Below the pieces are notes generated by a model, which saw only the letters and a list, made by a program, of their open reading frames with translations, had not been told where the DNA came from and did no database searches. This document shows positions 268 through 11,169 of a DNA stretch of 21,153 nucleotides, piece after piece. This DNA comes from a virus. Made by a program: the position numbers and the translations under genes. The first letter of the stretch is position 1, and each line of letters starts with the position of its first letter. The stretch spans positions 1-21,153 of IMG/VR virus record IMGVR_UViG_3300045971_000070; one strand, given 5' to 3'.

Positions 268-1548
268 ATGAGTAAGCATCATTCACATGGTACGCATGGC
301 ACACATGGTGGAACACCTACACCACCTAATCCACCTGTGCCGCCTACGCCACCACCCACACCGCCTACACCACCAGTAACAGGTGGAAAAACTAATTTAA
401 TACTTGGCTTCCATGTGCACGACTCAATGGATATTCCATCCGCAGCAAGTACGGGCTATCAAGCCATTCGACTGTGGGACTCTGGGGTAGATTGGGCCAG
501 TCTGGAACCAAACTCCAATGCTTGGCAATATAAGGTTATTGATGGTTATATCACGAAAAGTAAAGCGGCTAACCTGAAAGTGTTATTGACGCTTGGGCTT
601 ACTCCCCGATGGGCGTCAGCTAGGCCCGATGAAGAATCGAATTATGCACCGGGTAATGCAGCGGAACCAGCGGATATAAATACTTGGAGAACCTATGTAC
701 GTACCATTGCTACCAAGTATAAAGGGAGCATTGAAGCCTATGAAATATGGAACGAGGTAAACTATCCGTATGACCCACAATTCAATGGTGATGGTGGCGC
801 GCCTAATGGGTTTTTTAGTGGCAATGTTAGCGATATGGTTGAGCTTACGCAAACAGCCTATGAAGAGATTAAGAAAGTTGACCCTAATGCTCTGGTGCTA
901 TCACCTTCCATTCATCCTGCCTCAGGTGACTGGGGTGGTAAGTTTGACGCCTTTCTTTCGCAAGGTGGAGCGCATTATATAGATGTAGTTAGTCAACATT
1001 ATTATTTTGACCCTGAGCCAGAAAGCATCATACCTGCCATGCGGTCTTTAAAAGACACTATGGTAAAGAATGGCGTCGGCAAGCTGCCTGTATGGAATAC
1101 TGAAGTTGGTCAAAGTTTCTTTGACGATGCTAAATTAAGAAAGACTATACCCGTAGAAGATTTGATCTATTCACTAACATTAAGAACCTATCTAATTAAT
1201 GTATCCGAAGGCATATCACGAGTATATTGGTACGCTTGGGACAATGACAGTATGGGGGTTTCTACTCCTGGAACTAAAAATCAATTGGGTAGTGCAGCGG
1301 TCAGTGCAGCAAACCATCTGCTTGATAATCTAACATCAGTGACATGCAGTTCAGCTAATAATGTTTGGGAATGCAAGGTACAGACAGGAACCAGCAAATT
1401 TAAAGTGGTGTGGTTACAAGGTATCAATGCTACCAGCAGTTTTAAAGTTACAGGTAATGCTACCCGATGGGGTAAAACCCAAGTGACCTACAGCGCTGGT
1501 CAAGCCATCCAACTTGATGAACGACCTGTCGTGATTCAAGGTTGGTAA
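268..1548 (+). CDS. Clan GH-A glycoside hydrolase with His/Pro-rich N-terminus
   Basis: A 426-residue protein. Residues 1-15 are His/Gly/Thr-rich (His 4, 5, 7, 10, 13) and residues 16-38 are a Pro/Thr linker. A TIM-barrel-like domain starts near residue 43. Two signatures fit clan GH-A: YEIWNEVN, with likely acid/base Glu163, and LPVWNTEVG, with likely nucleophile Glu279. The order and spacing (about 116 residues) suit retaining families such as GH39 or GH5. A small beta-rich C-terminal part follows from about residue 355. There is no signal peptide, so it would be released by lysis or carried on the virion. It is read from ATG 268, with TTGGAG about 8 bases upstream; an ATG at 263 stops after two codons. 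It probably cuts a host or environmental polysaccharide. The substrate is not predictable here. Confidence 0.8.
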   Translation: MSKHHSHGTHGTHGGTPTPPNPPVPPTPPPTPPTPPVTGGKTNLILGFHVHDSMDIPSAASTGYQAIRLWDSGVDWASLEPNSNAWQYKVIDGYITKSKAANLKVLLTLGLTPRWASARPDEESNYAPGNAAEPADINTWRTYVRTIATKYKGSIEAYEIWNEVNYPYDPQFNGDGGAPNGFFSGNVSDMVELTQTAYEEIKKVDPNALVLSPSIHPASGDWGGKFDAFLSQGGAHYIDVVSQHYYFDPEPESIIPAMRSLKDTMVKNGVGKLPVWNTEVGQSFFDDAKLRKTIPVEDLIYSLTLRTYLINVSEGISRVYWYAWDNDSMGVSTPGTKNQLGSAAVSAANHLLDNLTSVTCSSANNVWECKVQTGTSKFKVVWLQGINATSSFKVTGNATRWGKTQVTYSAGQAIQLDERPVVIQGW

Positions 1549-1567
1549 ACTAGAAGGTAATTAATAA

Positions 1568-2710
1568 ATGAGTAATGAAATTAATGTCACCACCGAATCC
1601 CAACCCTCACAGGCGGTAGGTAGTGTAACAGATCAAATATCGGCGTTATTGATGGAAGATCAAGCGCCAGAAGAAAAGAAAGAACCAAAAGCAGCCAAGC
1701 CCAAAGCTCAAGAGTCTAAGCCGGATTTACCCCTAAGCGAGGATTCAACAGAGGATGGTAACGAGGATGACGAGGGTGAATTCTATGAGAAAGACCTAGT
1801 TGACGAAAGTGAACTAGAAGAGCCTGAAATTGAAGACAATGCTGGCCCCAGTGAAGACGAGGAAGCCACATGGTCTAAGGTGTTAGGTGTACCAGAAGAT
1901 AAAATTATTCTTGATGACGAGGGTGACTTTGCTGGCTTTAAAGTTAATGTTGCTGGCAAGATTGAAGTTGTTCCTGCTGCTGAGTTAATCTCAGGATACC
2001 AGAAGAATAGAGCAATCGACCAGAAAGGCAAAGCCCTAGCGGAAGAAAAGAAAAATTTTGAATCCCAGAAAATGCAAACTTTGCAAGAGTATGGCACCAA
2101 GATTAAAGATGCTGAGGCATTAACCACATATCTTGAAAACTCTTTAGTTAAAGAGTATCAAGGTGTAGATTGGAATACCTTACGCTATTCTAATCCTGGT
2201 GAATATGCAGCACTGGTACAAGATTACAACATTCGTGTTGATGAAATACAAAAGATTAAAACGGCGACTGATACTGTAAAACAGCAAGAGACTGAAAAGT
2301 ATCAACAAGAGTTTGGTCAAAGAACGCAAGCCTATATACAAGAGCAAGTACAGAAAGCGATAGAGAAACATCCTGAGTGGCAAGATACCAATAAGTTTAA
2401 ATCTGCATTAAGCACTATGCAAAACTTTGTATCTGACACTTATGGCTTCTCCGCTCAAGAATTTGCTGATGTAAAAGACGCCCGTATTTTAGATTTGATT
2501 CTGGATGCTCAAAAGTATCGTGCTGGAAAGACGATAGCAGAAAAGAAATTGGCTAAGCCTGTAGGTAAGTTTCAGAAACCTACTGGACAGGTGAAAGCTA
2601 CCAAAACCAAATTAGAGCAGCTGACTAGCAAGGCTAAAACCTCAAGCGGTTACGCAAAACATGCAGCCGAGACGGATGCAGTGGCAGAGCTGCTCAAAAA
2701 TATTTATTAG
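1568..2710 (+). CDS. Capsid scaffolding protein
   Basis: A 380-residue protein directly upstream of the major capsid gene, the usual place for the scaffold that templates procapsid assembly. Residues 30-100 are very acidic and Lys/Glu-rich. Residues 100-165 contain a compact segment (FKVNVAGK, then ELISGYQKNRAIDQK) common in SU10-type scaffold-like proteins. Residues 155-300 are predicted mostly helical and coiled-coil-like (long Glu/Gln/Lys runs). The C-terminus is basic (KAKTSSGYAKH), like the coat-binding tails of known scaffolds, and ends DAVAELLKNIY. No protease motif is visible. The stop overlaps the AGGGG ribosome-binding site of the capsid gene. Role assignment rests on position, composition and that short conserved segment. 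Confidence 0.8.
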   Translation: MSNEINVTTESQPSQAVGSVTDQISALLMEDQAPEEKKEPKAAKPKAQESKPDLPLSEDSTEDGNEDDEGEFYEKDLVDESELEEPEIEDNAGPSEDEEATWSKVLGVPEDKIILDDEGDFAGFKVNVAGKIEVVPAAELISGYQKNRAIDQKGKALAEEKKNFESQKMQTLQEYGTKIKDAEALTTYLENSLVKEYQGVDWNTLRYSNPGEYAALVQDYNIRVDEIQKIKTATDTVKQQETEKYQQEFGQRTQAYIQEQVQKAIEKHPEWQDTNKFKSALSTMQNFVSDTYGFSAQEFADVKDARILDLILDAQKYRAGKTIAEKKLAKPVGKFQKPTGQVKATKTKLEQLTSKAKTSSGYAKHAAETDAVAELLKNIY

Positions 2711-2722
2711 GGGTAAATTAAA

Positions 2723-3106
2723 ATGAGCACAGCGAATCTTGATTCGGCCGATCTTAAAGCGGCCACATATAAAGGACTCATACGTGAAGACGTCATGAAC
2801 AGGATTTTTGACATCAGTCGAATCCCATTACCATTTACTGATATGATTGGAAGTGATACACACAAGAACGAATATACGGAGTGGACGCTCGATGTCCTGG
2901 CAACGCCTGACGTCACAAATGCTGTCGTGGATGGTTCTGACGCCTCTGGTAATAATACCGTTATTGGTAATCGTGTCGGCAATCATAGCCAGATCAGTCA
3001 GAAGGTGGTGCGTGTCTCATTTCGTGCGGATGCTTCCGATGTGATCGGAAGAACGAAAGAAACAAGCTATCAGGTCATGAGAAGGCAACAAGAACTTAGA
3101 AGGGAT
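2723..3106 (+). CDS. Major capsid protein, exon 1 (codons 1-128)
   Basis: This encodes the N-terminal 128 residues of an HK97-fold major capsid protein of the DUF5309/SU10 type. It has an AGGGG ribosome-binding site before ATG 2723. Unspliced, the frame runs nine residues further and stops at TAA 3134-3136. The true exon end is placed after GAT 3104-3106. Joining here to GTA at 4137 gives ELRRD-VDAICLQNQ, which matches the continuous helix of the family (R-D-hydrophobic-Glu/Asp-x-Ala). The last exon base is U, and AAGGGAU (3100-3106) can pair with GUCCCCUU (3120-3127), with a U.G at the splice site and one bulged C. The joined gene (2723-3106, 4137-4235, 5409-5972) encodes 348 residues plus stop. 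Confidence 0.88.
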
Positions 3107-3256
3107 AGATGGCATTTTAGTCCCCTTGCTGCGTAAGTAGCAATGTAATAACCGCGTGAATTGCTGGAACCCCTGAAAAGGGCAATCAGCAGCCAAGCTT
3201 TCCGGTGACGGATTGAAGGTTCAGAGACTAATGTATACGGTCTCATCGAAATGCTC

Positions 3257-3285
3257 TAGACAACAAGAGCTTAGTAGTATATAAT
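3257..3285 (+). promoter_or_regulatory. Sigma70-like promoter inside intron 1
   Basis: TAGACA (3257-3262), a 17-base spacer, then TATAAT (3280-3285) match the -35 and -10 consensus in 11 of 12 positions at ideal spacing. Transcription would start near 3292, inside the intron and after the R element, and would deliver the homing endonuclease ORF (ATG 3329) without the 5' half of the ribozyme. The surrounding sequence is AT-rich, which raises the chance of accidental TATAAT matches, but the paired -35 box makes it credible. Confidence 0.55.
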
Positions 3286-3328
3286 ATTATTTAATATGAT
3301 TTAATATTATTAACTAAAAGGTGAGATT

Positions 3329-4054
3329 ATGAAACAACACGAGTGCGCGGCAACCAAGTTATGTAAAACTTGTAATACAGAGAAGTCTGTCAGTGAATAC
3401 CATAGTTATTTTGACAACAGGAAAGGAAAGACATACCTGAAAGGTAAATGTAAACTTTGTGAGAATGCTAAAGAGAAAGAGCGTTATAACAGCAACGAGC
3501 AAGCTCGATTATTTAAATTAGCTAATCAAGCTGTAAAAAGATCAACGGATGAATTTAAGAAGAAATCATCAGATTATCACAAAGGTTACAACGTTTTGAA
3601 TGCTGGAAAAATAAGTATTCAGAAAAAAGAGTATAGAAACAAGCCTGATGTAATTGCTAGAGAAAAGGCCAGATTGGCTAAAACTTATGCAGAAAATAAG
3701 GACTTAATAGTTTCAAAAAGGAAGGCTTTTTATGAAGCTAATCCTGAAAGACTAGATGCTATTAGGGAATATCATAAGCAACATTTTAAAGAAAATGTTT
3801 CTTATTACACTGAAAAGACTGAAAGATATAGAACCAGAGCCAAACGAGCTAAACCCATTTGGTATAACGCAGCTAAAATAATTGAGCTACGCAAAGAGGC
3901 AAGGCGATTGACATTAAGTACAGGTGTACAACATGAGGTGGATCATATTGTACCTTTACAAGGTGAGTTGGTAACTGGTTTACACTGGCATGGCAACATG
4001 CAGATATTGACTAAATTGGACAATATCAGGAAAAGTAATAAACATCTTGGTTGA
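3329..4054 (+). CDS. HNH homing endonuclease of intron 1
   Basis: A 241-residue protein inside intron 1, preceded by AAAGGTGAG 4-5 bases before ATG 3329. The N-terminus has two CxxC pairs (Cys12/15 and Cys41/44), a likely zinc finger. Residues 50-175 are basic, helical and loosely repetitive (for example AFYEANPER). The C-terminus holds the HNH nuclease: HEVDHIVPL with Asp205-His206, then Asn223 and Asn232 in the NMQIL and LDNIRKSN segments. It would nick or cut intronless capsid alleles so that the intron is copied in. It is clearly related in design to the endonuclease of intron 2 (shared start MK-x-HEC, two CxxC, HNH end). The stop TGA 4052-4054 touches the S element of the ribozyme. Confidence 0.88.
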   Translation: MKQHECAATKLCKTCNTEKSVSEYHSYFDNRKGKTYLKGKCKLCENAKEKERYNSNEQARLFKLANQAVKRSTDEFKKKSSDYHKGYNVLNAGKISIQKKEYRNKPDVIAREKARLAKTYAENKDLIVSKRKAFYEANPERLDAIREYHKQHFKENVSYYTEKTERYRTRAKRAKPIWYNAAKIIELRKEARRLTLSTGVQHEVDHIVPLQGELVTGLHWHGNMQILTKLDNIRKSNKHLG

Positions 4055-4136
4055 TGATATAGTCCTATCCTTTAGGTAACTAAAGGTGGAGAGATAAAGA
4101 ACTCTCCCGCCCTGTAAACGGGACGTAAAAATAATG

Positions 4137-4235
4137 GTAGATGCCATTTGTTTACAAAACCAGGCTTCTGTCTCTGATGATGGTGGCTCTACAGCGGGTA
4201 AAGTCGGTGGTCTTCCTACTTGGTTATCTAGCCAT
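4137..4235 (+). CDS. Major capsid protein, exon 2 (codons 129-161)
   Basis: A 33-codon exon between the two introns, starting VDAICLQNQASVSDD and ending GGLPTWLSSH. This is the part of DUF5309-type capsid proteins just after the conserved helix, where homologs read Ala-Gly-Leu-x-x-Trp-Leu/Ile. The start follows the terminal G of intron 1. The end is after CAT 4233-4235, because GCCAU (4231-4235) pairs with GUGGC (4246-4250), with the U.G at the splice site, and because that end keeps the frame into exon 3. Without splicing of intron 2 the frame continues KLNCGLAA and stops at 4260-4262. The exon contains no start codon and cannot be a gene by itself. Confidence 0.86.
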
Positions 4236-4433
4236 AAACTTAATTGTGGCCTTGCAGCGTAAGCTACAAGTAAAAATTGGGTGAATTGCTGGGATATCTT
4301 TAAGGGTTAGTGGCTACAACATAACAGGTGACTGTAAGTGTGAATGCTTGAAAACACTAGCTTATATGACAATCAGCAGCCAAGGGACTTAGTGATAAGT
4401 TCAAGGTTCAACGACTAGGTTATACAGTCTTTA

Positions 4434-4462
4434 TTTGCATAATTATGGAAGTACACTATATT
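4434..4462 (+). promoter_or_regulatory. Possible weak promoter inside intron 2
   Basis: TTTGCA (4434-4439), a 17-base spacer and TATATT (4457-4462) match the sigma70 consensus in 4 of 6 and 5 of 6 positions. It sits just downstream of the R element and about 30 bases before the endonuclease start, the same relative place as the stronger promoter of intron 1. In AT-rich DNA such a match can be accidental. Confidence 0.25.
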
Positions 4463-4493
4463 TGTACTAACAGTAATTAAAAAGGTGAAGACG

Positions 4494-5375
4494 ATGAAAA
4501 CCCACGAGTGCCCGACAACCAAAAAATGTAAAGTTTGTTTAGAAATAAAGGTTTTATCCGAGTTCAAAGCAAGATCGTTAGAATGTAAAAGTTGTTTAAA
4601 CGTAAGAACAAGATTAGAAAGATCAACACCAGAAGGAAAGGAAAAACGCTCAAAAGAATGCAGAAAATATTATGAGGCTAATGCTGCTGTAATAGCAGAA
4701 AAGGCTCTTGAATATAGAAGCAATAATTATGAGTTATGTTTAGCTAAAGAAAGATCATACCGTTTGGCTAATCCTGATAAATTATCAGGAATAAGTAGAA
4801 AATGTTATGAGGCTCATAGAGAGCAAAGATTAGCTTATGGTAAGTACTATAATCTTTTAAATAAAGACAAGAGGTCTAAGCAGGCTAAGGAATGGAGATT
4901 AAATAATCTTGATAGATGCGTTAAAAATGCTAGAAAATGGCGAGATGCTAATATAGAAAGATGCAAAGTTAAAGATAAGGCTTGGAAAGAGGCTAATCCA
5001 GAACTTGTTTTTAAGTATGAAAAAACATCTTATTATAAGAACCAAAAGAAACGTATTGCCAAAACTAAAAAATGGCAATTGGCTAATCCAGAAAAAGCAG
5101 CAATTATTAAACGTGTCTGTCACGCAAATAGAAGAGCTGCAAAGTTAAGGGCTAGTGTTTCTTGGAAGAACAAAGATAAAATTAAAGCTATATATAAGGA
5201 AGCAATTAGACTTACTGAGTTAACAGGAATAGCGTTCCATGTTGACCATATAGTCCCTTTAAAAGGTAAGTTTGTAACTGGTCTGCATTGTGAGGCTAAT
5301 TTACAAATATTGCCTGCTTATGAAAATATGGCTAAAAGTAACAAGTTTTTGGTTGATGATATAGTCTATTCTTAG
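4494..5375 (+). CDS. HNH homing endonuclease of intron 2
   Basis: A 293-residue protein. I take ATG 4494 over the in-frame GTG 4485: it gives the start MKTHEC, matching MKQHEC of the intron 1 enzyme, and AAAGGTGAAG lies just upstream. Two CxxC pairs (Cys12/15, Cys31/34) form a probable zinc finger. Residues 52-213 are about eleven tandem 15-residue units of the form (K/R)xWRxANx(D/E)(K/R). The C-terminal HNH domain shows FHVDHIVPL (Asp251-His252), Asn269 in ANLQIL and Asn278, Asn283 in YENMAKSN. The reading frame runs through the ribozyme S element, adding the tail FLVDDIVYS. Expected role: cleavage of capsid genes lacking intron 2 at the exon 2/exon 3 junction. Confidence 0.87.
   Translation: MKTHECPTTKKCKVCLEIKVLSEFKARSLECKSCLNVRTRLERSTPEGKEKRSKECRKYYEANAAVIAEKALEYRSNNYELCLAKERSYRLANPDKLSGISRKCYEAHREQRLAYGKYYNLLNKDKRSKQAKEWRLNNLDRCVKNARKWRDANIERCKVKDKAWKEANPELVFKYEKTSYYKNQKKRIAKTKKWQLANPEKAAIIKRVCHANRRAAKLRASVSWKNKDKIKAIYKEAIRLTELTGIAFHVDHIVPLKGKFVTGLHCEANLQILPAYENMAKSNKFLVDDIVYS
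4647..5132 (+). repeat. 15-residue tandem repeats within the endonuclease
   Basis: The aromatic position of each unit falls at residues 60, 74, 89, 105, 119, 134, 149, 164, 180, 194, with Cys at 209, so the period is 15 residues (45 bases). Clear copies include KEWRLNNLDR, RKWRDANIER, KAWKEANPEL and KKWQLANPEK. At DNA level GGCTAATCC recurs. The units are basic and likely helical, forming an extended DNA-contacting spacer between zinc finger and nuclease. Confidence 0.75.
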
Positions 5376-5408
5376 GCGAGAGTTTAAGTAGTCGGTAATT
5401 AAAAAGCG

Positions 5409-5972
5409 ACTAATAATACAAAGAATTATGGTGGTACTGCTGGCGGGTTCTCTGGTTCGACGGGTTTAACGGTTGCCAGAATACCTACAGCGGCAAGAGG
5501 CTTAACTGAAACATTGGTGCGTGATGCTGTACAAGCTGTTTATACAGATGGTGGCGATCCTACTGTGATGATGTCTATTCCTGGGGTTATTCGTAAATTC
5601 AGTGAATACTTATTTACTAGCTCAGCACGTGTGGCTACCTTGATGAGCGATCAAGGCAAGAGTACAGAACAAGCTACTGCATTGGGTTCTGTAAACGTAT
5701 TTGTTACAGATTTCGGGACTCTTAAAATGGTGCCCAATCGACTGCAACAAAAACACACTGACTCTGGATCAACCCAGGTTGCTGATGTGTTTATACTTGA
5801 TCCTTCCTATTTATCCCTTTCATATCTTAAGGGCTATCGGACGGAAGACTTGGCTAAGACTGGCCTTGCTGAAAATAAACAAATGTCAGTTGATTGGACG
5901 TTGAAAGTCTTGACTGAAAAATCGATGGCGATCATTGGTGACATTAATCCAGCAACTGCTGTAACACTTTAA
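5409..5972 (+). CDS. Major capsid protein, exon 3 (codons 162-348)
   Basis: 187 codons plus TAA 5970-5972. It starts TNNTKNYGGTAGGF and continues through RGLTETLVRDAVQAVY, GGDPTVMMSIPGVIRKF, then VNVFVTDFGTLKMVPNR and FILDPSYLSLSYLKGY. This order (helix, GGxPdxxMxxP loop, beta strands with P-domain-like turns) is typical of the second half of DUF5309/SU10-type major capsid proteins. The exon boundary is fixed by phase: ACT begins a codon, and CAT ends one in exon 2. The first in-frame GTG or ATG within the exon would give only a truncated protein lacking the spine helix, so independent translation is unlikely to make a working coat protein. The capsid lattice protein is the most abundant virion protein, so its production depends on efficient splicing of both introns. 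Confidence 0.87.
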   Translation, partial: TNNTKNYGGTAGGFSGSTGLTVARIPTAARGLTETLVRDAVQAVYTDGGDPTVMMSIPGVIRKFSEYLFTSSARVATLMSDQGKSTEQATALGSVNVFVTDFGTLKMVPNRLQQKHTDSGSTQVADVFILDPSYLSLSYLKGYRTEDLAKTGLAENKQMSVDWTLKVLTEKSMAIIGDINPATAVTL

Positions 5973-6003
5973 ATAAACGATCAGAATAATACCTGCTAGT
6001 TTT

Positions 6004-6046
6004 CCTGCCTAATTGGTTATTCACCTTCCCAAATTAGGTAGGTTTT
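6004..6046 (+). terminator. Rho-independent-like terminator after the capsid gene
   Basis: CCTGCCTAATT (6004-6014) pairs with AATTAGGTAGG (6032-6042), 11 bp including one G.U, with a 17-base loop and then only four T's. The large loop and short T tract suggest a partial terminator that lowers, rather than ends, transcription into the following genes. The next gene has no clear promoter of its own, which fits read-through. Confidence 0.6.
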
Positions 6047-6063
6047 AATTCTTGGAGAATAAA

Positions 6064-6456
6064 ATGACAACTGAAACACCAAAGCACGTACCACATGTAA
6101 CGCCTACCACACCAGTAACCAATACTAGTGCTAAAGTAGCGCCAGCGCATACTACGCCTAAAGCCAAAGTATCGCCCAATGTAATTCAACCTTCACCTAC
6201 ACCAGAAACGCTTGTAGCTGAACCTAAACAGCCCAATCGTCCGCTGCACTCTACGCCAGATGATACGGCTAGAAGAGATGCCAGAGCGCGTGGTTATTCG
6301 ATCGGGCCAAATGAACCTGCTGCAACTATTAAGGTTAAGAACATACATACCATTGCATTGAATCTTGAAGCGGGCATTATTCAGCCTGGCGCTACAGGTC
6401 TTGCAACAGAGGCGGAAGTAAGTAATCTACTTGATCAATATTTGGAGAGATTGTAA
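6064..6456 (+). CDS. Pro/Thr-rich putative virion protein
   Basis: 130 residues from ATG 6064, with GGAG (6054-6057) seven bases upstream; an in-frame TTG at 6052 overlaps that site and is rejected. Residues 1-75 are low-complexity Pro/Thr/Lys/Ala, a probably disordered arm. Residues 76-130 form a small domain with TIKVKNIHTIALNLEAGIIQPGATGLATEAEV, written here only to show its beta-strand and turn pattern; it is followed by LLDQYLERL. It follows the capsid gene, where decoration and head-completion proteins are often found. No known family was recognised. The stop overlaps the next start (TAATG), indicating translational coupling. Confidence 0.7.
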   Translation: MTTETPKHVPHVTPTTPVTNTSAKVAPAHTTPKAKVSPNVIQPSPTPETLVAEPKQPNRPLHSTPDDTARRDARARGYSIGPNEPAATIKVKNIHTIALNLEAGIIQPGATGLATEAEVSNLLDQYLERL

Positions 6457-6689
6457 TGCCAACGACAGTAGCAACACCAACGTGTACCGGCATCGCAGTA
6501 GCCGCAATAGAAACTGCATTAAAGACCGCAGGCTTAGGTTCATCAGGTATGAAAGCCTCCCGATCGGAAGGCGGGGCTATAGATAGCGGTATCGCCTCAT
6601 CCCTGACATGTTCAGCACAGTCACCAGCTGCTGGTGTCGTGGTGGATTTAGGTACAAATGTCGCTCTTAAGTTTACCAATCGAATGTAA
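6456..6689 (+). CDS. Small PASTA-like protein
   Basis: 77 residues, start coupled to the previous stop by TAATG. The sequence has the shape of one PASTA-like unit. A helix with ETALKTAGL is followed by the strand CSAQSPAAGVVVDLGTNV and ALKFT, recalling the QSPAAGxxVxxGSxVxL end of PASTA domains of cell-wall-binding kinases. PASTA domains bind peptidoglycan fragments or beta-lactams in bacteria; in phages, similar folds serve as structural appendages. There is no signal peptide or membrane segment. Together with the two-domain protein at 7110-7676 it makes a small PASTA-like cluster behind the capsid gene. The fold assignment is by eye and moderately sure. Confidence 0.6.
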   Translation: MPTTVATPTCTGIAVAAIETALKTAGLGSSGMKASRSEGGAIDSGIASSLTCSAQSPAAGVVVDLGTNVALKFTNRM

Positions 6690-6691
6690 TT

Positions 6692-6772
6692 GTGGATATT
6701 ACTGCACAAATAATGGTTGCATTAGCAGTAATAACCGTAGTGTTAACTGTAATAACCGTATGGATGGACTAG
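6692..6772 (+). CDS. Possible 26-residue membrane peptide
   Basis: From GTG 6692 to TAG 6770-6772 the frame encodes MDITAQIMVALAVITVVLT followed by VITVWMD: an acidic start, one hydrophobic helix of about 18 residues and an acidic end. It exactly fills the gap between two coupled genes, with its stop directly abutting ATG 6773. ATG 6713 would give a shorter 19-residue version. No strong ribosome-binding site is visible; translation by coupling is possible. Function unknown; it could also be non-coding spacer. Confidence 0.4.
   Translation: MDITAQIMVALAVITVVLTVITVWMD
6728..6760 (+). repeat. 12-bp direct repeat, 21-bp period
   Basis: GTAATAACCGTA occurs at 6728-6739 and 6749-6760, exactly 21 bases apart. 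In the small hydrophobic frame each copy encodes VITV in the same phase, which fits an internal duplication of a coding segment or of a site. Confidence 0.6.
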
Positions 6773-7108
6773 ATGACTCAGTTTGATCCAACATTTGACG
6801 GGGTTATCAAGTCAGAGTTCTTAACGCACATTGACGAGATAGCCCATAAGCAAACGCAGCCATCAGAAGATTTGATCTTAGCTCGCAATGCCGAGCTAAG
6901 AAAGAATCCTGGGGTATTGTATGATTTAGGTGAACAAGATGGGCATCCCTGGGGCCGTATGGTTGCATCGATACCTATGAACATGTTTGAGAAGGCTATT
7001 CGGGAGGGTTATGCTTTAAATAGTCAAAGCCCAGATATAGCCGCCTCAGCAATGGCAAATTATTTATTAACGCCAGAAGGCAAAGCTTGTCTGGTTCAGG
7101 GGAAGTGA
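6773..7108 (+). CDS. Conserved phage protein of unknown function
   Basis: 111 residues. The pattern EDLILARNAELRKNPGVL, then GRMVASIPMNMFEKAIREGY, resembles a small helical protein common near the capsid genes of short-tailed phages. Those proteins share the segment ARNAELRKNPG and an R-x-VASIP turn. No catalytic motif, signal peptide or membrane helix is visible. ATG 6773 directly follows a TAG at 6770. It lies between two PASTA-like genes and ends one base before the next start, so it is part of the same translational chain. It may be a head-associated or minor capsid-assembly protein; this is inferred from position only. Confidence 0.65.
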   Translation: MTQFDPTFDGVIKSEFLTHIDEIAHKQTQPSEDLILARNAELRKNPGVLYDLGEQDGHPWGRMVASIPMNMFEKAIREGYALNSQSPDIAASAMANYLLTPEGKACLVQGK

Positions 7109-7109
7109 A

Positions 7110-7676
7110 ATGACTGGTCAGATAAGATACGCAGCCGCACAAGATGAAACAACACTTAAAACGGCTGATGGAAAGCTTGGAAAAGCCTTCTGTGCAGGTA
7201 GGCATGGATTAATTAATGGAGCAAATACTAACCCGCATGTCTCAGGCGATGAACTCTACGCAGCCTATGAAGCAGGCTATGCGACGACTACGCCAGAAGG
7301 GACATGGGATAACTGTGCGATGGCGATACCCATCACTATGCCTGATTTAGCGGGAATGACCATAGCGGTAGCAAGTGCGGCTATATTGAACGCAAATTTA
7401 GCAATAGGGGCGATTACTGGAGCGTATGGTGTGGTTACCTCACAATTACCCACAGCTGCTGCAAAGACACAACCCAATGACGTCGTAACCTTTACTGCAA
7501 AAGTAACCGTACCAGACTTAACAGGTATGACTTCCGCGAATGCTGAAGCGGCGTTAATCACAGCGCACTTAATTAAAGGTGTGGTTACTGGCACATCTGG
7601 CGTAGTCACTGTACAACTTCCGTTAGCAGCGGCTTTGGCAGTCAGTGGTTCGGCGGTAGCTTACACAATAGCATAA
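7110..7676 (+). CDS. Protein with two PASTA-like domains
   Basis: 188 residues in three parts. Residues 1-72 (CAGRHGLINGANTNPHVSG, then ELYAAYEAGY) form a small helical head rich in Gly/Ala, with faint likeness to ribosome-modulation-factor-type phage domains. Residues 77-131 and 133-187 are two PASTA-like repeats. Each opens (M/V)PDLxGMT, continues AxAAxxxANL or AEAALITAHL, and has strands GVVTxQLPxAA followed by VxFTA or VAYTIA. Single-domain relatives bind the bacterial wall; here they may project from the capsid or tail. The alternating conserved segments make the internal duplication clear at protein level. No signal peptide is present. Confidence 0.7.
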   Translation: MTGQIRYAAAQDETTLKTADGKLGKAFCAGRHGLINGANTNPHVSGDELYAAYEAGYATTTPEGTWDNCAMAIPITMPDLAGMTIAVASAAILNANLAIGAITGAYGVVTSQLPTAAAKTQPNDVVTFTAKVTVPDLTGMTSANAEAALITAHLIKGVVTGTSGVVTVQLPLAAALAVSGSAVAYTIA

Positions 7677-9913: not shown

Positions 9914-10735
9914 ATGATTAGCCTAAATTCAAAACAGTTAGTTAGACCTAATTATCCGGCAAAACTGGATAGGTCGAATACACTTGCCAAGGGGTTAGTG
10001 GGTTATTGGCCATTGTCTGAGGGTAGTGGTGATACTGCTTATGATTTAACAGATTCCAAAGCTAATGGAACGCTGGTAGCTTCTCCAGGTAGTAGCCCTT
10101 ATCTGTTTGGAAAAGCGTTATTGTTTAATGGAACTAGCCAATATATAGATTGTGGCAATGTATTAAGTATGGGGGTTAATAATTGTACTTTTGGTGTATG
10201 GTTCAAAACAACCACAGCAGCAGCGGAAGCTATAATCTTTTCCAGAGGCTGTACTGGTTTTGCATCAGGAAGATACAGTATCTCTATAGTCGCAGGAAAA
10301 GCCAATTTTCAGGCATCTGGAACAAACGTTAATTGGGTTATTGCTAAGTCAACAACATCATTCAATGATGGCAAATGGCATCAATTAGTAGGGGTATTAG
10401 ATCGGCGTACTTCTGATGCGACTTTAAATTGTTATGTTGATGGTACGCTACAGGCTCAAACGGTAACCTCTGTTGGTTTGTTCAACACTGAAAATTTAAT
10501 TACCGCTTATAAATTATTAATTGGTGCTTTTGGCAATGCATCAGGGACAACGCCGCCCTACCCTGGAATAAGCTTTCCTGGTTCTATAGCTAATGTCAGT
10601 ATTCACTACCGCGCATTATCAGCTCCAGAAGTATTAAGCTTCTATCAAAATCCCTGGCAGGTTTACGAACAACCAAAAATAGCTGCTTATTTATCTGCAT
10701 TATCAAATGACTTAGGCTTTTTTGGGATATTTTGA
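9914..10735 (+). CDS. LamG/concanavalin A-like lectin-domain protein
   Basis: 273 residues. From about residue 30 the sequence follows the LamG type 3 pattern: GLVGYWPLSEGSGDTAYD, LFNGTSQYIDCGN, FGVWFKTT, then GKWHQLVGVLD, CYVDGTLQ, and closing FPGSIANVSIHYRALSAPEV. These are the classical landmarks (YWPLxEGxG, GxxQYI, WHQLVGVxD, VDG, SIxxVxIxxRALSxxEV). Such domains bind sugars or proteins. The N-terminal 28 residues could attach it to the virion. The stop overlaps the region just before the lipoprotein gene. Part of a run of adhesin-like genes; probably recognises a surface glycan. Confidence 0.8.
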   Translation: MISLNSKQLVRPNYPAKLDRSNTLAKGLVGYWPLSEGSGDTAYDLTDSKANGTLVASPGSSPYLFGKALLFNGTSQYIDCGNVLSMGVNNCTFGVWFKTTTAAAEAIIFSRGCTGFASGRYSISIVAGKANFQASGTNVNWVIAKSTTSFNDGKWHQLVGVLDRRTSDATLNCYVDGTLQAQTVTSVGLFNTENLITAYKLLIGAFGNASGTTPPYPGISFPGSIANVSIHYRALSAPEVLSFYQNPWQVYEQPKIAAYLSALSNDLGFFGIF

Positions 10736-10737
10736 TT

Positions 10738-11169
10738 ATGAAAATGCTAGCACTACTGATATTACTCACAGGCTGTGCAGCACACTACGAGCATTATGTT
10801 GAGTTAAATCAACCGCCAACTCTGTTTAATCAGGATTCCATTAACAGGTACTTGCTAACAAAGTATAAAGGCCAAGCTAATGAGCAAGCGCGTATTATTT
10901 ACTATCAGGACGACAAATATTTATTGGATGAAGTCGTGCAAGGCGGTGTAAATAAGGTTGCTACAAATGGCCTTCAGATCGTCGTTAATTGCACGATTAA
11001 AAAATGCAATCATGTTGTACTGGCACATAATCATCCTGGGCAATACTTTGGCAAGGCTTCACATATAGATTTAGAAAATGCTGATAAATTTAAAGAAATG
11101 ATGTCTCAGGCGTCTATAAAATCATCTTACTTGGTTATAGGAAACAGTGATGCGAATTGGCTTTATTAG
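10738..11169 (+). CDS. Lipoprotein with RadC-like JAMM/MPN metalloprotease domain
   Basis: 143 residues from ATG 10738; an in-frame TTG at 10732 overlaps the previous stop and is less likely. The start MKMLALLILLTGC is a very short lipoprotein signal, with lipidated Cys13 predicted. The mature part resembles the C-terminal domain of RadC. YYQDDKYLLDEVVQGG is the strand pair; HVVLAHNHPG and ASHIDLENA form the zinc site. The motif is His97-x-His99-x8-Ser108-x2-Asp111, one residue longer than the usual HxHx7SxxD. Glu65 may be the catalytic Glu. JAMM enzymes hydrolyse peptide or isopeptide bonds. Lipidation would put it in the bacterial envelope. This is inferred from motifs; activity is unproven. 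Confidence 0.75.
   Translation: MKMLALLILLTGCAAHYEHYVELNQPPTLFNQDSINRYLLTKYKGQANEQARIIYYQDDKYLLDEVVQGGVNKVATNGLQIVVNCTIKKCNHVVLAHNHPGQYFGKASHIDLENADKFKEMMSQASIKSSYLVIGNSDANWLY

Follow-up and report, generated by a model that had tools for sequence, protein, structure and literature searches.

A phage major capsid gene interrupted by two putatively self-splicing group I introns, in a gene family with introns at many positions

How can a coat protein be made from a gene whose reading frame is cut into three? The question is raised by a virus record from IMG/VR (IMGVR_UViG_3300045971_000070), whose 21,153 bases form the window analysed here, and in which the pieces of a major capsid gene lie apart on the plus strand, as do all window features given below. 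Exon 1 (2723-3106, codons 1-128, ending AGAAGGGAT; placed by frame, P1 helix and homologues), exon 2 (4137-4235, the 33 codons 129-161; frame, homologues and splice-site rules) and exon 3 (5424-5972, codons 162-343 plus the stop; homologues and splice-site rules) join in frame to a major capsid protein of 343 residues, the length of its intronless homologues. The Pfam family PF17236 (SU10-type major capsid) spans the whole spliced product (expectation value, E, 9.6e-66, scored on a 348-residue version discussed below). Our answer, to which we give a probability of about 0.92, is that the gene is interrupted by two group I introns that would splice themselves out, each encoding a putative nuclease of the homing type.

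The first-pass annotation had joined the three exons at 3106/4137 and 4235/5409 to give 348 residues. Joining in frame holds, as do the 3106/4137 join (frame, P1 and homologues) and the 5' splice site of intron 2 at 4235, with its 33-codon exon 2, but the length does not. Five intronless relatives (L004, L005, L006, L007 and L147) have 343 codons and read CAT-AAY-TAY (SH-NYGG) at the intron 2 site, intron 2 ends in ..ACAAAG, as does its L017 relative at site 216, and a P10 helix of 5 bp pairs; because of this the 3' splice site is placed at 5423/5424 rather than after 5408. The 4235/5409 junction is rejected, TNNTK being intron sequence and the five surplus residues of the longer version. The DNA of L004, whose capsid protein is 94% identical to the spliced product, reads ACTTGGTTATCTAGCCAT-AATTATGG at this site, and its letters match the exons joined at 4235/5424. 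Intronless alleles at the same site, which mark a homing intron, are thus found in L004-L007 and L147. The stretch at the second site in L004 is locally of high identity (44/45 nucleotides, nt), and no co-conversion tract was discernible beside the introns in 15-codon identity profiles to L004-L006, which were too noisy. A chimera or artefact of a single assembly is rejected, since another record, L015, shares 99.99% identity with it across 8,561 bases, both introns included; an intein or programmed bypass is likewise rejected, the inserts containing stops and ribozyme cores.

Both inserts have the anatomy of group I introns. Intron 1 (3107-4136, 1030 nt) follows residue 128 in phase 0, and is supported by two half-matches to the Rfam model RF00028, by the covariance model R1 described below and by its exon-end U and intron-end G. 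Its internal guide sequence GTCCC (3120-3124) pairs with exon GGGAT, an in-frame stop follows at 3134-3136, and the 5' strand of P3, CCGCGTG (3152-3158), pairs at 7/7 positions with 3344-3350. The Q element (3184-3197, AATCAGCAGCCAAG) and R element (3216-3230, AAGGTTCAGAGACTA) precede the nuclease gene, and the S element, the 3' strand of P7 (4056-4064), lies just past the nuclease stop. Intron 2 (4236-5423, 1188 nt), after residue 161 and also in phase 0, is supported by RF00028, homologues, P1 and P10, and model R1. It carries a P10 strand TAATT (4241-4245) that pairs with AATTA of the 3' exon (5424-5428), the guide sequence GTGGC (4246-4250) that pairs with exon GCCAT, the P3 5' strand TTGGGTG (4277-4283, from model R1 and pairing), a Q element with the same letters as in intron 1 (4371-4384, AATCAGCAGCCAAG), an R element (4403-4417, AAGGTTCAACGACTA) and an S element within the nuclease frame (5358-5366). 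The Q, R and S elements were located by alignment to RF00028, and the P, Q, R and S elements described earlier were found in both introns. Each splice site has a P1 of 5 bp with U.G (GGGAU/GUCCC at 3106, GCCAU/GUGGC at 4235), and the exon-end U paired to a guide G and the intron-end G are present in both introns.

RF00028 matched each intron in two halves and in the correct order, at E 2.5e-7 and 4.8e-7 for the 5' halves of introns 1 and 2 and 1.5e-5 and 0.0036 for the 3' halves; the matches are split because the nuclease gene separates the halves. A model of our own, R1, built from 24 introns of other capsid genes that lack an open reading frame, with no sequence from the studied record, recovered both introns, with 89.7 bits (E 1.9e-26) for intron 1, 93.2 bits (E 1.6e-27) for intron 2 and ~28 bits for the 3' halves of both. 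RNAalifold on the same 24 introns gave helices matching P3, P4, P5, P6, P8 and P9 (the helix names are our assignment), with compensatory changes at 26 of 35 consensus pairs. The proposal that two group I introns of mobile type interrupt one coat gene is supported.

The nuclease frames encode 241 residues in intron 1 (3329-4054; PHROG matches and a structure model) and 293 in intron 2 (4494-5375; PHROG matches). In both proteins a long helical segment connects a CxxC/CKxC zinc ribbon in the N-terminal part to an HNH-like region in the C-terminal part, and the residues VDH..PL..N..N..K are conserved in the intron nucleases. They match PHROG 26577, endonuclease VII 1035 (E 8e-11 and 1e-13) and endonuclease 2340, the last of which occurs in DNA-polymerase introns of Bastillevirinae (PMC11878797); the best fold match of the structure model is Hpy99I, at E of only 0.3. 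Their placement between R and S agrees with the first-pass annotation, but the frames also overlap the core, at the 3' strand of P3 in both introns (3344-3350, by pairing with 3152-3158, and 4509-4515, by model R1 and pairing) and at S/P7 in intron 2, where the last codons (VDDIVYS) run across the S element, which encodes the C-terminal DDIV. Overlap of a nuclease frame with the intron core is already known as 'core creep' (PMC3073962) and is also illustrated in PMC3984707.

Each of the nine introns of this capsid gene that bear a nuclease (two in the studied record, two in L010, four in L017, one in L216) has the 3' strand of P3 at nuclease codons 6-8, with covariation: the strand lies at nt 16-22 of the frame from the ATG of the MK/MN start (19-25 if a preceding ATG is counted), and 6 or 7 of its 7 bases pair with P3 5' strands that differ in sequence. 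A lone 7-nt match can readily arise by chance, as a control indicated, and the evidence is the fixed position in 9/9. Promoter-like elements of the sigma70 type lie upstream of the nuclease frames, TAGACA-17-TATAAT (3257-3285, 11/12 consensus matches) 43 nt before the ATG in intron 1 and TTTGCA-17-TATATT (4434-4462) in intron 2, and several introns have a TATAAT-like element 26-43 nt before the nuclease ATG. Outside the SU10-type set, L055 (minus strand, ~4495 of the reverse strand) has a nuclease frame that starts MKPHER, with a P3-like 3' strand in codons 6-8. An alignment search with the HNH region returned mainly distant nucleases, and no additional split SU10-type capsid gene was recognised in it. 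When the introns were compared with annotated phages by blast, only short core matches appeared; one, of 72 nt to the core of intron 1, lies in phiKZ (AF399011, 65446-65517, at PHIKZ072.1), and many relatives of phiKZ have it as well.

How general such interruptions are was examined in intron loci gathered from IMG/VR viral contigs by three generic exact core patterns. At least 255 loci have a core, and among the matches listed 26 of 255 (~10%) have same-strand SU10-type capsid matches; as the sample is defined by patterns and by the matches listed, such shares are not population frequencies. The first-pass annotation had called two introns in a coat gene unusual on the ground that the protein must be abundant, and with this share of loci in SU10-type capsid genes no general rule of that kind is apparent. 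Exact splice sites could be placed for 42 introns, at 29 residue/phase positions in 27 SU10-type capsid genes, with one intron in 18 genes, two in 4, three in 4 and four in 1. The 27 include L010, L017, L216 and the studied record, and exclude L083, whose splice sites were not resolved; splice sites in L357, L340, L345, L310 and L415 were set by hand, L385/L386 and L429/L430/L433 are near-copies, and site numbers in genes 22-34% identical to the studied one depend on alignment within a residue or two. All 42 joins are in frame and free of stops. The search demanded a U at each exon end and a G at each intron end, so these letters lend no independent support, which comes instead from the P1 helices and from in-frame joins by which the homologous sequence is restored. 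Both L010, with three introns, and L017, with four, join to exactly 343 residues, as in intronless L004-L006. The capsid gene is a repeated landing ground for introns, because related viruses carry up to four of them at about 29 places.

In L017 the 343-codon gene (1858-6823) comprises five exons and four group I introns, with a nuclease frame in each, the fourth broken by a TAG after 107 codons. In L010 the third intron (3134-3356) of the three-intron gene (909-4124) has 223 nt and no nuclease, and its site (88/0) is that of a nuclease-bearing intron of L017.

Capsid genes of other families are also affected. In 105 open frames adjoining introns (first pattern, among the matches listed) head proteins were the commonest identifiable class other than nucleases: the counts are SU10 major head 6, phrog_267 major head 5, phrog_283 major head 3 and phrog_9953 major head 2, and, for other functions, gp32 single-strand binding 5, DNA polymerase 2 and tail sheath 2. 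One protein may match two families in these counts, and the frame beside an intron is not necessarily the one that it interrupts. In L098 and L039, capsid genes of the phrog_267 family are clearly interrupted beside a group I core.

The product is an SU10-type major capsid protein with the HK97 fold, from its PF17236 match and a model of the L004 protein (predicted local distance difference test, pLDDT, 69; predicted template modelling score, pTM, 0.67), which matches the Pa223 capsid 9ny2 best and also the SU10 capsid. A long helix in this model, residues 107-133, should be the spine helix of that fold. It holds 9 of the 29 insertion positions versus 2.3 expected (binomial p ~3e-4) and residues 19-33, in the N-arm, hold 7 (binomial p ~2e-4), both regions having been picked after the data were seen; a scan statistic over 20 codons gave p 0.003. 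The idea that a helix-to-Trp segment is a homing hot spot is hence borne out for the spine helix, but there is a second cluster, the remaining positions are scattered, and site 161, that of intron 2, was found within the sample only in the studied phage.

Scores computed on intron cores, with a shuffle that keeps base-composition and shared-ancestry effects of the loci, found the nearest relative at the same site of a different gene in 5 cases versus 0.6 expected (p 0.002) and at a different site of the same gene in 7 versus 1.2 expected (p 0.001); a tree of the cores pointed the same way. Same-site relatives in diverged genes, at 25/2 in L010 and L216 and at 123/2 in L117 and L357, fit homing, and same-gene nearest neighbours suggest local spread within the gene. 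Same-gene kinship might instead reflect gene conversion between resident introns rather than movement to a new site, a serious contender that we would place somewhat below even odds. The L415 introns (972-1221 and 1882-2139), at different sites, are mutual nearest relatives with 87% identity, and their cores are almost identical and their P1-P2 ends wholly different, the one at site 33 matching that of the L305 intron in this position, so that here only the core may have been exchanged by conversion. The L340 introns, also mutual nearest relatives (86% identity), are by contrast alike in core and guide and share the target AGAU, as transposition predicts.

Rather doubtful, in our judgement, is the reading in which the many sites reflect only independent arrivals of unrelated introns from outside plus same-site homing, and movement inside the gene plays no part. 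In its favour, introns 1 and 2 lack close kinship (score 0.53, versus 1.15 for intron 2 and the L017 intron at site 216), and site 116 is occupied by three non-sister introns; against it stand the different-site pairs of L415 and L340 and intron 2 itself, which is closest to introns at other sites, 216 and 88 of L017, while intron 1 groups elsewhere. Less likely still, the introns might be kept because they are useful to the phage, as a nuclease weapon against rivals or a splicing switch on capsid production. There is a precedent in the phiPA3 intron nuclease directed against phiKZ (PMC11620839; discussed in PMC11878797), and capsid genes are essential, conserved targets; however, 33 of the 42 introns (208-319 nt) have no room for a nuclease gene, a stop breaks one nuclease frame of L017, close relatives manage with no introns and selfish spread suffices.

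Several points weigh against the reading of two splicing, nuclease-bearing introns in the studied gene: each RF00028 half-match is below the gathering score, P10 of intron 1 was not evident in a pairing check at its splice sites, a Pfam search of both nucleases found no domain in either, and in DNA so rich in A and T the promoter-like elements count for little as evidence (single-site p 0.02 to 0.75). Each intron also has an in-frame stop 24-30 nt from its start, which would fit introns that no longer splice, the gene being broken or its fragments made as separate polypeptides that assemble. Such a loss of splicing is nevertheless very improbable, since the pairings of the catalytic core and the splice-site rules are preserved, the exons are conserved and keep their phase, the capsid gene is essential and working group I introns usually carry a stop a short way in (PMC3073962).

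The anatomy, the homologues, the empty sites, the covariation and the many insertion sites are observations; how the introns splice in cells, whether the nucleases cut, when they are expressed and how the introns spread are inferred. In the mechanism that we propose, the pre-mRNA would hold two group I ribozymes, each folding with its U.G-bearing P1, P3-P8 and S. Each would excise itself with guanosine, joining 3106/4137 and 4235/5424 to yield the 343-residue coat protein. Each zinc-finger and HNH nuclease most likely cuts intronless copies of the gene in co-infecting relatives, and repair would copy the intron in. Because nuclease codons 6-8 are the 3' strand of P3, one RNA should not be able to fold as a ribozyme and be translated into nuclease at the same time; a short transcript begun at the promoter-like element a little ahead of the ATG would be missing the P3 5' strand and could serve for translation, and this element may thus separate nuclease expression from splicing. 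New sites within the capsid gene could be reached by off-target nuclease cutting, by reverse splicing into capsid mRNA or by recombination of resident introns. A more tentative idea, which we hold to be less likely than not, is that the SU10-like capsid gene is an intron island, in which introns hop from site to site, perhaps because its mRNA would be the commonest late RNA and hence best suited to reverse splicing, and nucleases then drive each new site into the population; since the length of the 99-nt exon is a multiple of three, its skipping could also yield a shorter second coat protein.

Both introns are ordinary in kind, being group I introns with HNH-type nucleases. I-HmuI is an HNH nuclease of DNA-polymerase introns of the SPO1 type, and Twort orf142 reportedly has three introns. 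SPO1-type introns resemble those described here in being group I with an HNH nuclease in the P8 region and a reading frame that touches the core (PMC3073962), whereas here a zinc ribbon and helical linker precede the HNH part, the P3 3' strand lies in codons 6-8 and the S element of intron 2 in C-terminal codons. Up to three group I introns per gene, with exon skipping, are reported for Twort orf142 (tail tube) and for Bastillevirinae DNA polymerase and terminase genes (PMC11878797); here the host is the major capsid gene, with up to four introns and 29 sites across the family. The closest parallel in host gene is mycobacteriophage LittleE, with a probable group I intron in its major capsid gene, a homing-nuclease reading frame and an empty allele in sister phages, splicing having been demonstrated by reverse transcription PCR and protein sequencing; unlike here, it has a single intron, another capsid protein and a LAGLIDADG-like frame on the opposite strand (PMC3706429). 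The same paper cites a single capsid intron in Tuc2009. Fungal ribosomal DNA group I introns likewise occupy many sites in one highly expressed gene, with kin at different sites, and reverse splicing has been proposed for them (PMC1299323); here the gene is a protein-coding one of phages, and some introns carry nucleases. In the open-access literature, absence from which is not proof, we found no major capsid gene described with several introns, and nothing on this scale, with 29 sites and as many as four introns per gene in a single capsid family.

With about one in ten intron loci of the IMG/VR core-motif sample (among the matches listed) in this one family, the question, posed in recent work, why phage introns favour polymerase, reductase and terminase genes therefore needs restating, and it can be tested with existing metatranscriptomes. 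Relatives of ~90% protein identity offer a natural series of no, two, three and four introns, suited to tests of homing versus reverse splicing, of what splicing costs a gene that is expressed at a very high level and of exon skipping. The P3-in-codon layout adds nine instances, with covariation, in which a nuclease frame starts inside a ribozyme core.

Elsewhere in the window, a scaffolding gene (PHROG 3927) lies upstream of the capsid gene, and directly upstream of this scaffolding gene is a frame with a weak glycoside hydrolase family 42 domain match (268-1548). A RadC-like JAB-domain protein (10732-11169, Pfam E 1.5e-7) stands among structural genes, and a protein at 7110-7676 has, by reading only, PASTA-module-like repeats (VPDLTGMT..A).

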